A stretch of DNA of 64,000 nucleotides from Alphaproteobacteria bacterium (GTDB taxonomy: Bacteria; Pseudomonadota; Alphaproteobacteria; Reyranellales; Reyranellaceae). A program made the position numbers and the translations under genes. The first letter of the stretch is position 1. The number at the start of each line of letters is the position of its first letter. The notes below the pieces were generated by a model, which had not been told where the DNA came from, ran no database searches, and saw only the letters and a program-made list of their open reading frames with translations. The stretch spans positions 124,001 through 188,000 of the forward strand of contig JAHBYP010000009.1 in NCBI GenBank assembly GCA_019635875.1, in the 5' to 3' direction. Below are positions 4,753 to 15,162 of the stretch, in pieces.

Positions 4753-6152
4753 CCGATCAGGCTCTGCCCGCCCGCCCGGCGGATGCGCCCGGCCACGGCG
4801 TGACCTTCGGCGAGGCGATGAAGGTCTGGCTGCGCGTCGCGGCCCTGAGCTTCGGCGGTCCCGCCGGACAGATCGCCGTCATGCACCGCATCATCGTCGA
4901 GGAGAAGCGCTGGATCGGCGAGACGCGCTTTCTGCAGGCACTGAACTACTGCACCCTGCTGCCCGGGCCGGAAGCACAGCAGCTCGCCACCTATATCGGC
5001 TGGCTGATGCACAAGACCAAAGGCGGGCTGGCGGCCGGCCTGCTCTTCGTGCTGCCCGGCCTGCTGTCGATCATGGCGCTGAGCTGGATCTACGTGATCT
5101 TCGGACAGGTCGGCATCGTGCAGGGCCTGTTCTTCGGCCTGAAGGCCGCCGTGCTGGCGATCGTCATCGAGGCCGTCGTGCGCGTCGGCAAGCGCGCGCT
5201 GAAGAACCGGGTGATGGTCGGCATCGCCGCCGCGGCATTCATCGCCATCTTCTTCTACGATGTGCCCTTCCCGCTGATCATCGTCATCGCCGGCGCGATC
5301 GGCTACATCGGCGGCCGCGCCGGCGCGGCGGCGTTCCTCGGCGGCGGCGGACACGGCAAGGTCGGCGACAGGCAGGTCGCCGATCGCGATTCGCTGCTCG
5401 GCGAGGAGACGCCCGCACATGCGCGTCCCAACCTGCGCTGGTCGCTGCGCATCAGCGCGGCGTTCCTGCTGCTGTGGCTGGGGCCGGTGGCGGCGCTGCT
5501 GGCTTTCCTGGGGCCGGACAACGTCTTCAGCAGCATCGCCGTCTTCTTCAGCAAGATGGCGATCGTCACCTTCGGCGGCGCCTATGCCGTACTGGCCTAT
5601 GTCGCGCAGCAGGCAGTCGACCAGTACCACTGGGTGACCGCCGGCGAGATGCTCGACGGCCTGGGCATGGCCGAGACCACGCCCGGCCCACTGATCATGG
5701 TGACGCAGTTCGTTGGCTTCCTCGCCGCCCATCGCGCGCCCGGCGGTTTGCATCCCCTGCTCGCGGCGACCCTTGGCGGCCTGCTGACCACCTGGGTGAC
5801 CTTCGCGCCCTGCTTCCTGTGGATCTTCTTCGGCGCGCCCTTCGTCGAGGCGTTGCGCGGCAACCGGGCGCTCTCGGCAGCGCTGGGCGCGATCACCGCG
5901 GCGGTGGTCGGCGTGATCCTCAACCTCGCGGTCTGGTTCGCGCTGCAGGTGCTGTTCAAGAGCCACGTGCCCGTGGGCTGGCTCGGCATGTCGCTGCAGG
6001 CGCCGGTGCTGTCGTCGGTCGACTGGCCGTCGCTTGCGCTCGCGGCGGCCGCGGCCATCGCGGTGTTCCGCTTCAAGGCCGGGATGATCCCGGTGCTGCT
6101 GGCCAGCAGCCTGGCCGGCATCGCCTGGCACTTCCTTCGTGGCGCGCTCTGA
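4749..6152 (+). CDS. chrA: Chromate efflux transporter ChrA, long-chain type
   Basis: The 467-residue inner-membrane protein has two homologous halves, the mark of long-chain CHR transporters. Each carries the family signature: ALSFGGPAGQ with LLPGPEAQQ in the first half, and FGGAYAVLAYV with AETTPGPLIMVTQFVGF in the second. ChrA exports chromate, driven by the membrane potential. It is coupled to chrB by a 4-bp overlap and ends convergently with the GST gene 5 bp away. A hydrophilic linker at about residues 195-225 separates the halves. Confidence 0.95.
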   Translation: MTDQALPARPADAPGHGVTFGEAMKVWLRVAALSFGGPAGQIAVMHRIIVEEKRWIGETRFLQALNYCTLLPGPEAQQLATYIGWLMHKTKGGLAAGLLFVLPGLLSIMALSWIYVIFGQVGIVQGLFFGLKAAVLAIVIEAVVRVGKRALKNRVMVGIAAAAFIAIFFYDVPFPLIIVIAGAIGYIGGRAGAAAFLGGGGHGKVGDRQVADRDSLLGEETPAHARPNLRWSLRISAAFLLLWLGPVAALLAFLGPDNVFSSIAVFFSKMAIVTFGGAYAVLAYVAQQAVDQYHWVTAGEMLDGLGMAETTPGPLIMVTQFVGFLAAHRAPGGLHPLLAATLGGLLTTWVTFAPCFLWIFFGAPFVEALRGNRALSAALGAITAAVVGVILNLAVWFALQVLFKSHVPVGWLGMSLQAPVLSSVDWPSLALAAAAAIAVFRFKAGMIPVLLASSLAGIAWHFLRGAL

Positions 6153-6157
6153 CGGCT

Positions 6158-6862
6158 TCAGGCAGCGGTCTTGTGCGCGCGGCCCATGCCATTGAACAGG
6201 TCAAGCATGCGGCCGATCCAGCCGTGCAGCGGGTCGTCGCCGGCCAGCAGCGGCACGGCGCAAACGGTCCGCACCCACATGAAGGCGCCCATCACGGTGT
6301 AGTCCGGATAGGCAGGCGCGGCACCGGAAATGAACGGCTGGTCGCGCAGTTGCTGGCGCAGCGGCTCGAGCGTTGCGCGCAGCGCCGGAATGCGCTGCTC
6401 GCGCGCGGCGCTCTGCGCCGCCTCCAGGCTCGTGCCCAGGCGCTTCTCGCGGCTCTCGCGGAAGTACGCCTGGTCGGCGGGATGGGCGGCGGCATGGATG
6501 TCGGCGACGACCAGCGGGAACAGCGCGCCGTGCAGGGTGACATTGGTCCAGGCGGCGACAAAACGCGCGAACGCCTTGCCGCGTTCGCCGCCCAGCAGCG
6601 CCGGGCCGTCGGTATAGGCCTCGTCGAGTTGCTCGGCGATGTCCCAGCTGTCCTTCACCACCTTGCCGCCATGGCCGGCGTCGACCATGACCGGCACCGT
6701 GCGGGCCTGAGCAAAGGCGATCTTGTCCTTCTCGGTGAATCCCACCGGCACTTCGTCCCAGCTGAGCCGCTTGTGGGCCAGCGCGAACTTGGCGCGCCAG
6801 CAGAACGGGCTGGGCCGCCGGCCGCCGGTGACGTCGAGGTCATAGAGGGTGATCGTAGCCAT
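6158..6862 (-). CDS. Glutathione S-transferase family protein
   Basis: The 234-residue protein has an N-terminal thioredoxin-like domain with SPFCWRAKFAL near residue 18, then RTVPVMVDAG and DSWDIAEQLDEAY, followed by an all-helical C-terminal domain. The pattern is closest to the LigE/LigF beta-etherase-like GST group often found in alphaproteobacteria. The substrate cannot be told from sequence. The ATG has GGAG five bases upstream. It is transcribed alone and faces chrA tail to tail. Confidence 0.85.
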   Translation of the reverse strand: MATITLYDLDVTGGRRPSPFCWRAKFALAHKRLSWDEVPVGFTEKDKIAFAQARTVPVMVDAGHGGKVVKDSWDIAEQLDEAYTDGPALLGGERGKAFARFVAAWTNVTLHGALFPLVVADIHAAAHPADQAYFRESREKRLGTSLEAAQSAAREQRIPALRATLEPLRQQLRDQPFISGAAPAYPDYTVMGAFMWVRTVCAVPLLAGDDPLHGWIGRMLDLFNGMGRAHKTAA

Positions 6863-12757: not shown

Positions 12758-13249
12758 ATGCGCCTGATCCCGTCGGCCCGCGCCTTGCTGATCGATCCGC
12801 AGGATCGCGTGCTGATGATGAAGCTCGCCGGGCGGCGCATCGTCGATCCCGCCGCGCGGTTGCGGCCGACCTTCTGGGTTACGCCCGGCGGCTCGCTCGA
12901 GCCCGGCGAGTCGTTCGAGGACGGCCTGCGCCGCGAGCTGCGCGAGGAGACCGGCCTGGAGGTCGGCGATGTCGGCCGCCACGTCTGGATCAGCGACAAG
13001 GAACTCGACATCGCCGGCGAGCGCGTGCTGACGCGCGCCCACGTCTACGCGCTGCGCGTGCCGGCCTTCGAGCCCGTCGTGCGCACCATGACAGCGGACG
13101 AGGCCGACGCTTTTCGCGGCTTCCGCTGGTGGTCGATCGACGACATCGCCAGTTCGCGCGAAACCTTCATACCGCGCGACCTCGCCGGCCTGATGCGTCC
13201 CCTGCTCGCCGGTGACTGGCCAACGGCGGCGATCCGGATCGCGCCTTAG
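12758..13249 (+). CDS. NUDIX hydrolase
   Basis: The 163-residue protein carries a complete Nudix box, GGSLEPGESFEDGLRRELRE followed by ETGL, in which the glutamates bind the catalytic metal. The start at MRLIPSARALLIDP gives a normal Nudix length. It hydrolyses a nucleoside diphosphate linked to another group, but the substrate cannot be inferred. It follows hemB by 16 bp and is likely co-transcribed. Its stop overlaps the convergent lipoprotein gene by 4 bp. Confidence 0.9.
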   Translation: MRLIPSARALLIDPQDRVLMMKLAGRRIVDPAARLRPTFWVTPGGSLEPGESFEDGLRRELREETGLEVGDVGRHVWISDKELDIAGERVLTRAHVYALRVPAFEPVVRTMTADEADAFRGFRWWSIDDIASSRETFIPRDLAGLMRPLLAGDWPTAAIRIAP

Positions 13250-13761
13250 AGGTTGCTCAGCCGCGGCCGGATCGCGTGTGCCGGCCCGGGCCCGATGGGC
13301 TCGATCGCGTCTTTGCGCCTGCCATCCGCATTGACGTCGGGCATAGCCGATGTCGGCTGGCCCTCCTGTGGAGCCTCCAGGCCGTCTGGCGTGCCGCCGG
13401 CGTTGCGCTCGCCCCGGGCGTTGAGCGCGGGCTGTGGCTTGGTGAAACCGGCGTCCCTCATGCACGAGTCGATGGCGGCATTGGCGGCGACCCCCTGCGC
13501 CGCGCCGTGCACCATCCCCACCACCAGCGCTCCTACGAGAATGCCGATCACGCCCCCGGACGAGGTCGCTTGCTGGTAGGCATGCGATGGTACTGGCCCC
13601 GACGTACGGGCGTTCGCCTCGGCCCTGCACTTGGCAAAGGTGGCGTCACGGTGCTCGACGCTGGCTTCCTCCTTGTTCCAGCTATCCGCCGTCGGCGCAC
13701 AGGCCGGCAGCATCGCGACAAGCGACATGGATACCGCGCAAACACGGATGGCGCGACGCAT
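13246..13761 (-). CDS. Putative lipoprotein with glycine-zipper segment
   Basis: The 171-residue protein has a lipoprotein signal ending MLPAC, with the lipidated Cys at residue 21. A hydrophobic glycine-rich stretch follows at about residues 68-95 (GGVIGILVGALVVGMVHG), resembling glycine-zipper outer-membrane lipoproteins. The C-terminal third is polar and proline-rich. The ATG at 13761 is preceded by GGGAGAGG. It is downstream of the repeat-protein gene on the same strand, about 70 bp away. The function is unknown; an envelope location is likely. Confidence 0.75.
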   Translation of the reverse strand: MRRAIRVCAVSMSLVAMLPACAPTADSWNKEEASVEHRDATFAKCRAEANARTSGPVPSHAYQQATSSGGVIGILVGALVVGMVHGAAQGVAANAAIDSCMRDAGFTKPQPALNARGERNAGGTPDGLEAPQEGQPTSAMPDVNADGRRKDAIEPIGPGPAHAIRPRLSNL

Positions 13762-13834: not shown

Positions 13835-14161
13835 CTACGGCACGCCAGGAAAGCTGTTGACGTACATGATCTTGACGTCGGGAAAGGACGTCACGAACTG
13901 GACCTTCAGGTCCGGCCAGGACGTGACCACCTGCCACTTGCCACAGGAATCGGGAAACGAGCCGACGTTCATGACCTTGAGGTCGGGAAACGAGTTGACG
14001 ATCTGCACCTTGATGTCGGGCGAGGAGGTCACGACCTGGACCTTGCCCCACAGCTTGCGGCCCTTGAAGGTGCAGTCCTTGCCCACCGCCTGCGCGCTCG
14101 CTTCGCCCGCGACGGCGGCCAGCGCCAGCATCGCTGCCACCGCGCATGTCACGCTTCTCAT
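13835..14161 (-). CDS. Small exported protein made of six 11-residue repeats
   Basis: The 108-residue protein has a signal peptide (cleavage probably after AGEASA, residue 23) and a short CTFKGRKLWG lead. Six near-identical units then run from residue 40 to the end: KVQVVTSSPDI, KVQIVNSFPDL, KVMNVGSFPDS (plus CG), KWQVVTSWPDL, KVQFVTSFPDV and KIMYVNSFPGV. The consensus is K-V-Q-x-V-x-S-x-P-D-x. Alternating hydrophobic residues and an SxPD turn suggest a small repetitive beta structure. Cys30 and Cys73 could pair. The start overlaps the stop of the upstream hydrolase by 4 bp (ATGA). I do not recognise the family. Confidence 0.85.
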   Translation of the reverse strand: MRSVTCAVAAMLALAAVAGEASAQAVGKDCTFKGRKLWGKVQVVTSSPDIKVQIVNSFPDLKVMNVGSFPDSCGKWQVVTSWPDLKVQFVTSFPDVKIMYVNSFPGVP

Positions 14162-15162
14162 TTCGTGATCTCCCCGATGAAGCGCTCAATCGCGCGATCA
14201 TGCCACGGCAGCGCGTGACCCGCGGCATGGAATCCGACATGGCCGCCGCCTTCGGCAAGCAGCGGCGTCAGATCGGGATGCGCCCTCCAGTCGAAGCCGC
14301 GATAGATCGCGATCGGTATCCACGGGTCGTCGCTCGCGGCGATCGCCAGCGTAGGCTTGCGGATGGCGGGCATGAATCTCAGGGCCTTGTTCTTCTCGTA
14401 GTAGTCCTCGGCGCCGGCGAAGCCGTGGCGTGGCGCGATGAAGACGTCGTCGTACTCCCATACCGAGCGGCAGCCGAGGATCGCGTCGCGCTCCGTCGCC
14501 GTCAGCCGCGCGCCCGCGGCCGTCGCCTCCGCTTTCATCTGCCCAAGGATGTAACGATGATAGAAGCGATTGCGTGGCCGCAGCATATGCTGGCAGGTCA
14601 CCGACAGATCCACCGGCGTGCACACGGTGGCCGCACCGATCAACGGCGCCGAAGCTCCCTCCTCGCCGAGGAACTTGAGCAGCATGTTGCCGCCCAGCGA
14701 GTAGCCGACGGCGAAGATCCCGTCCTTCGTCAGGCGGGGATCGAGCAGGCCGAGGACGGCGCGGAAGTCCTGGGTGCGGCCGGCGTAGTAGATGTCGCCG
14801 CAGGTCGTGCGCGACTCGCCGGCGGCGCGGAGGTTCAGCCGCAGCACCCGTCGGCCCTGCGACAGCATGTGACGTGCGGTGGTGCGCACGTAGGCGCTGT
14901 CCTCGCTGCCGGTCAGCCCGTGGATCAGGATCACCAGCGGGCCACCGCGATCGACCGCCGGCCGGTCGAGCCTGGCAAGCAGCGTGTCGCCACTGCCGTC
15001 GGCCATCGGCAGTCGGATGCGCTCGCTCGCCCCGGCGCCCAGGTGCGTCGTGGGCGGCAGGATGCGGTTGGCGATGGTCTGTAGATCGGCGGTCAGCCAG
15101 GGGAATCGCGGGCGAAACGGCTCGATGTCGAGAGCGACGGACATTGCGTCGAACAATACCAT
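14158..15162 (-). CDS. YheT-like alpha/beta hydrolase
   Basis: The 334-residue protein has the nucleophile elbow GYSLGGNM (Ser155), the oxyanion strand LVILIHGLTGSEDS and a late ASDDPWIP acid and GGGHVGF histidine, which complete a catalytic triad. The order and HGLTGSEDSAYVR block match the YheT/ABHD hydrolase group, which act as esterases of unclear physiological substrate. The ATG at 15162 has GGAGG five bases upstream. MSVALDIE at 15144 is a weaker alternative. It is translationally coupled to the exported repeat-protein gene downstream and divergent from a DMT transporter gene. Confidence 0.88.
   Translation of the reverse strand: MVLFDAMSVALDIEPFRPRFPWLTADLQTIANRILPPTTHLGAGASERIRLPMADGSGDTLLARLDRPAVDRGGPLVILIHGLTGSEDSAYVRTTARHMLSQGRRVLRLNLRAAGESRTTCGDIYYAGRTQDFRAVLGLLDPRLTKDGIFAVGYSLGGNMLLKFLGEEGASAPLIGAATVCTPVDLSVTCQHMLRPRNRFYHRYILGQMKAEATAAGARLTATERDAILGCRSVWEYDDVFIAPRHGFAGAEDYYEKNKALRFMPAIRKPTLAIAASDDPWIPIAIYRGFDWRAHPDLTPLLAEGGGHVGFHAAGHALPWHDRAIERFIGEITK

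Follow-up and report, generated by a model that had tools for sequence, protein, structure and literature searches.

What is the small protein made almost wholly of six near-identical units that is encoded on a contig of a Reyranellaceae bacterium (Alphaproteobacteria), and what could it do outside the cytoplasm? Its gene lies in the window analysed here, a stretch of 64,000 nucleotides of contig JAHBYP010000009.1 (assembly GCA_019635875.1). The first-pass annotation, made from the DNA letters, described an exported repeat protein and knew of no named family with this repeat. We find that the protein has a homolog of known fold and belongs to a family, widespread in bacteria, that carries no curated name.

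The Gene, Its Signal Peptide and the Repeat Array

The 108-residue product reads, in order, MRSVTCAVAAMLALAAVAGEASA / QAVGKDCTFKGRKLWGK followed by six 11-mers, the third of which is written VMNVGSFPDSC-GK (Table 1). The 11-residue consensus K-V-Q-x-V-x-S-x-P-D-x occurs six times. The six units share a mean pairwise identity of 0.527; in 20,000 shuffles of the residues the mean was 0.086 (sd 0.020, maximum 0.188). This contrast (53% versus 8.6% +/- 2.0) bears out the six near-perfect repeats described initially. The translation likewise confirms the CG insert proposed behind the third repeat. Tandem Repeats Finder detects DNA-level periods of 33 and 105 in the array, the former being one repeat and the latter the half-array of three repeats plus insert. 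Cys30 and Cys73 are the sole two cysteines of the mature chain.

The N-terminal signal peptide of the first reading is correct by sequence, and a simple hydrophobicity rule finds a hydrophobic, signal-peptide-like N-terminus in 152 of 159 members of the family. To judge from these N-termini, export of the repeat protein is well supported.

Table 1. Features of the repeat protein gene and its neighbors in the window.
Feature	Coordinates	Strand	Evidence and remarks
Exported six-repeat protein CDS	13835..14161	-	108 aa; stop TAG at 13835-13837; phmmer PDB 8iwa E=1.3e-13, phrog_6462 E=3.5e-33
Sec-type signal peptide, residues 1-23	14093..14161	-	Sequence; likely cleaved after ASA-Q; without lipobox
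N-terminal cap CTFKGRKLWGK, residues 30-40	14042..14074	-	Contains conserved Cys30; conservation in family alignment
Repeat 1, VQVVTSSPDIK	14009..14041	-	Repeat identity versus shuffles; family alignment
Repeat 2, VQIVNSFPDLK	13976..14008	-	Repeat identity versus shuffles; family alignment
Repeat 3, VMNVGSFPDSC	13943..13975	-	Last residue is conserved Cys73
G74-K75, the 2 residues that the CG insert adds to the step from one three-repeat half to the other	13937..13942	-	Kept in nearly all relatives
Repeat 4, WQVVTSWPDLK	13904..13936	-	First residue is invariant Trp76 (family alignment)
Repeat 5, VQFVTSFPDVK	13871..13903	-	Repeat identity versus shuffles; family alignment
Repeat 6, IMYVNSFPGVP	13838..13870	-	Invariant FPG (F104 P105 G106) replaces FPD
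YheT-like alpha/beta hydrolase	14158..15162	-	Abhydrolase_1 E=1.1e-14; NF008218 150.8 bits, below cutoff 267
Lipoprotein-like gene, LPAC motif	13246..13761	-	Downstream; not conserved beside the repeat gene

Homology to a Knotted Ureaplasma Protein

Complex knots are rare among proteins. To our knowledge, the knot seen in the crystal of UU089.1 is the most complicated in any protein, and experimentally it comes from this single Ureaplasma protein. UU089.1/Q9PR55 (8iwa, 8iwb, 8jrm) is the sole PDB sequence match of the repeat protein (phmmer E=1.3e-13, profile E=5e-18). The phmmer alignment lays query residues 30-97 onto residues 18-85 of the UU089.1 chain with 53% identity over 68 residues, thereby spanning the knotted core 27-83. 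Common to both proteins (PDB 8iwa, 8iwb, 8iwc, 8jrm, 8w68) are the 11-residue unit x-K-V-Q-x-V-x-S-F-P-D and an insert near the boundary of the third and fourth units. By these alignments the repeat protein is a relative of the 7_1-knotted UU089.1/Q9PR55.

The 7_1 knot of Q9PR55, with a core at residues 27-83, was predicted by Brems et al. (PMC9278004) and confirmed by X-ray crystallography (PMC13352647, PMC11223836); the NMR entry 8jrm bears the title 'Solution structure of a 7_1 knotted Q9PR55'. Q9PR55 is an 89-residue protein that aligns over five units, has a longer third unit and, within the alignment, is devoid of the conserved Cys pair, whereas the window protein has six units, a signal peptide, the FPG end and the Cys pair. 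A homolog of Q9PR55 with 48% identity to it, P73136, was predicted to form a 5_1 rather than a 7_1 knot (PMC9278004). At 112 residues, P73136 would have room for a signal peptide and six units.

The absence of a named family therefore holds for Pfam and NCBIfam, neither of which gives a match, and has to be amended for the solved relatives UU089.1/Q9PR55, for PHROGs phrog_6462 and for the sister architecture PF19647/DUF6150. The searches thus lead to a family whose fold is characterized and whose function is not. An exported protein with a regular beta repeat could also be an ice-binding, adhesive or structural protein without relation to knots. We find this highly improbable: Pfam, NCBIfam and the PDB give no match to such families, the PDB match to UU089.1 weakens the idea and the number of repeats never grows.

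A short protein without signal peptide in a Myxococcota sample genome (L240) is closer to the UU089.1 type than to the six-repeat type.

Distribution and Fixed Repeat Number

A profile-guided scan of GTDB genomes yielded at least 382 genomic loci, 80 of which were kept. They are found in Alpha-, Beta- and Gammaproteobacteria, Myxococcota, other deltaproteobacteria, Spirochaetota, Bacteroidota and Negativicutes/Synergistes. Carriers among the sampled genomes are 6/398 in Pseudomonadota, 10/296 in Bacteroidota, 25/198 in Spirochaetota, 28/193 in Myxococcota and 65/250 in Negativicutes. Occurrence is patchy, with between about 1.5 and 26% of the genomes sampled in a searched group carrying the family, yet it lacks a Pfam or NCBIfam name; Pfam, NCBIfam and PADLOC scans return no credible family for the repeat protein or its relatives. 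Within its own taxonomic family the gene is present in three genomes of each of two genera (labelled g1 and g4) and absent from the listed genomes of a third (g3).

PHROGs v4 has a cluster that matches the window protein, phrog_6462 (E=3.5e-33, profile positions 8-103 of 103), and its profile matches all 94 aligned members, window protein included. The cluster is one of phage proteins and is annotated as of unknown function, while the members found here are mostly chromosomal.

The alignment is nearly gapless: residues 28-106 are free of indels in 93 of its 94 members, the exception being one viral sequence, and W76, F93 and F104-P105-G106 are invariant. Only a handful of the 158 distinct sequences differ by indels in the repeats. 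Since there are almost no gaps or insertions across the repeats, their number is essentially fixed at six, unlike that of an open-ended solenoid. Variation in repeat number, which had initially been proposed as something to check between strains, is not seen, nearly all 158 sequences being without indel inside the array.

Sutterella has, some 1.4 kb away from the complete gene, a second copy (L017:2355-2702, + strand) whose signal peptide is the same but which holds the first and last repeat only (DCTYKGKKLYGKIQIVNSFPDIKIRYVTSFPGPVK). It looks as if four repeats had been lost.

Predicted Structure and Chain Path

AlphaFold2 gives a pLDDT of 86.9 for the precursor and of 95.6 with pTM 0.82 for the mature chain, reaching about 96 over the repeats. 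The all-beta model displays six short strands (4-5 residues) spaced by 11 residues, with a longer step only at the insert, in support of the compact beta repeat with SxPD turns that had been thought plausible. Below an E of 0.001, Foldseek matches Q9PR55 structures only (E about 1e-5, probability 1.00). Superposition in sequence register (64-73 columns, 46-50% identity) has an rmsd of about 10 A, with TM about 0.36 over 73 columns, and that on 8iwb_F (68 columns, 44% identity) has an rmsd of 3.3 A and a TM of 0.64 by target, apparently in a register shifted by one repeat; both registers were assigned by arithmetic from column counts and identities rather than read from a printed alignment. As the model fits Q9PR55 well only in the apparently shifted register, the backbone path of Q9PR55 may not be shared by the six-unit family, a difference already reported for P73136. 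AlphaFold can misplace chain crossings and is unreliable on them (PMC10672856).

The chain could have a simpler path than Q9PR55 while being related to it, as an unknotted triangular beta-solenoid of two coils, with repeats 1-3 stacked on repeats 4-6. The rmsd of 10 A in sequence register and the even spacing of the strands, broken only at the insert, would agree with such an arrangement. We consider it unlikely: over the entire knotted core (Q9PR55 27-83) the protein shares 53% identity with a chain that is knotted in the crystal, about five repeats superpose on that chain at 3.3 A, and the repeat number is fixed here but usually varies in solenoids. Homology to Q9PR55 leads us to regard the window protein as probably knotted.

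The Cysteine Pair

Among 158 distinct sequences Cys30 and Cys73 are both present in 117, both absent in 41 and never found one alone, counts whose statistical weight is less than they suggest because the tree of these short sequences contains few independent events (about 4 switches, only 1 of them forced by well-supported branches). A Cys30-Cys73 disulfide had initially been raised as a possibility. As the two residues are kept or lost together, the bond is likely, and this covariation supports it well.

Likeness of the Repeats Within a Protein

Different repeats within one protein are more alike than repeats compared between proteins, an excess found mainly at positions 5 and 6 of the unit (ratios 1.93 and 1.26). 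Turn variants illustrate this likeness within single chains: TAFPD is found in all six turns of one member (L061) and EHFPD in most turns of another (L081). Codon identity at same-residue positions of different repeats is 0.540 versus 0.521 expected. Codon sharing so near expectation indicates that the likeness is kept mainly by selection and leads us to reject recent repeat duplication or gene conversion as its main cause. Such selection would be expected if positions 5 and 6 packed on each other around a pseudo-symmetric core, as they may do.

In Burkholderia stagnalis (L010:3900-4243) IAPx replaces the SFPD turn in nearly all repeats.

Genomic Surroundings

The window copy sits among hemB, NUDIX and YheT genes, and the end of the YheT-like gene overlaps the start codon of the repeat gene as ATGA. 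A promoter and terminator scan around the repeat gene found neither. The translational coupling to the YheT-like gene highlighted initially is real and recurs, as ATGA overlap or close coupling, in 6/6 carriers of the same taxonomic family; it turns out to be a trait of the local lineage and not a functional partnership across the family. The repeat protein could be a partner of the hydrolase, for instance a secreted regulator or substrate carrier, an idea favored by this coupling and by an alpha/beta hydrolase lying directly downstream in some Leptospiraceae. Most genomes of the own family, however, have the YheT-like gene without the repeat gene, and tblastn of YheT over the loci found none beside the repeat gene outside that family; alpha/beta hydrolases are, moreover, very common. 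We regard such a partnership as very unlikely. In the other genomes of the own family, among them one (L117) from a genus that also has carriers, the YheT-like gene occurs without the repeat gene, which makes the latter accessory there. Four genomes of genus g3 (L123, L124, L125, L126) have two tandem YheT-like genes.

The lipoprotein-like gene that was noted downstream does begin 73 bp after the repeat gene, but it is not adjacent to it even within the same genus and was rejected as a partner. Elsewhere the neighbors include glutamate dehydrogenase, transhydrogenase, PALP enzyme, guanylate cyclase and MFS genes. They change from lineage to lineage, and a conserved operon partner was rejected accordingly.

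A scan with the family alignment found members on 14 viral contigs, whereas an earlier scan of viral contigs with a single protein as query gave no match. In Leptospira, 10 prophage contigs (L093-L102, about 5950-6267) and one plasmid (L009:3935-4249) carry the repeat gene inside a tail baseplate operon, with a phrog_5564 gene on one side; on the other, the repeat gene directly precedes baseplate J and overlaps it by 4 bp. On a further viral contig (L103:6001-6354), a member that lacks the Cys pair is flanked by baseplate hub genes of opposite strand. These placements and the existence of phrog_6462 would suit a protein derived from or serving phages, such as a tail-module gene or a moron retained by some hosts. 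Against such an origin, the genomic loci inspected have ordinary chromosomal neighbors, as has the window copy with hemB, NUDIX and YheT, and tblastn of the repeat protein against 50,697 GenBank phages gave no match. We think it rather improbable. A search of a viral-structure library with the repeat protein matched nothing.

A Stable Exported Accessory Protein?

We favor, with a probability of roughly 70%, the hypothesis that the window protein is a Sec-exported, disulfide-locked, probably knotted and very stable non-enzymatic periplasmic protein of the UU089.1/Q9PR55 family, serving as a binding or protective accessory encoded by a single gene. The chain would cross the membrane unfolded through Sec and lose its signal peptide. 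Its six beta units, each a 5-residue strand with an SFPD turn, would then fold outside the cytoplasm as two mutually packed three-unit laps joined at the CG insert, and a disulfide between Cys30 of the cap and Cys73 at the lap junction would close the fold and keep the ends from slipping out. The expected product is a small rigid domain resistant to protease and unfolding. That neither catalytic-looking residues nor partners are conserved speaks against an enzyme and against a subunit of a complex. We propose a binding or protective role because there are neither conserved enzyme-like residues nor a fixed operon partner; the gene may spread on its own, as an accessory, among bacteria and some phages.

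The family provides many exported relatives of a complex-knot protein, with a covarying cysteine pair that may form a disulfide and a built-in repeat. It makes testable whether a knot can be tied outside the cytosol, whether a disulfide locks it and what purpose a knot has. A bolder and doubtful extension is that the six-unit exported family forms a knot other than that of Q9PR55 (5_1, or above 7_1, for example with nine crossings). On this view unit number would determine the knot, and bacteria would tie and disulfide-lock it outside the cytoplasm after Sec export. If true, this would be a natural series in which knot complexity tracks repeat number.

A Sister Architecture in Bacteroidota

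PF19647 (DUF6150), presumably the model renamed 'Septknot, 7(1) septoil knot' in a later Pfam release, has no match in the window protein or its genome at the curated cut-off of 27 bits; for the 94 relatives, it does not rank within the top 25 families by frequency. It was therefore ruled out as the family of the window protein. Its Bacteroidota members (L244-L249) share with the window family a signal peptide, six units, an insert only after the third, a Trp starting the fourth unit and a Gly in the sixth turn; they differ by a 13-residue unit with a YxSQAD turn. The two profiles align in phase, with a weak score (E=0.019, probability 2.5%). It is the architecture, not this score, that makes a common origin likely. 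One sequence (L253) has five DUF6150 units in a protein without N-terminal signal peptide.
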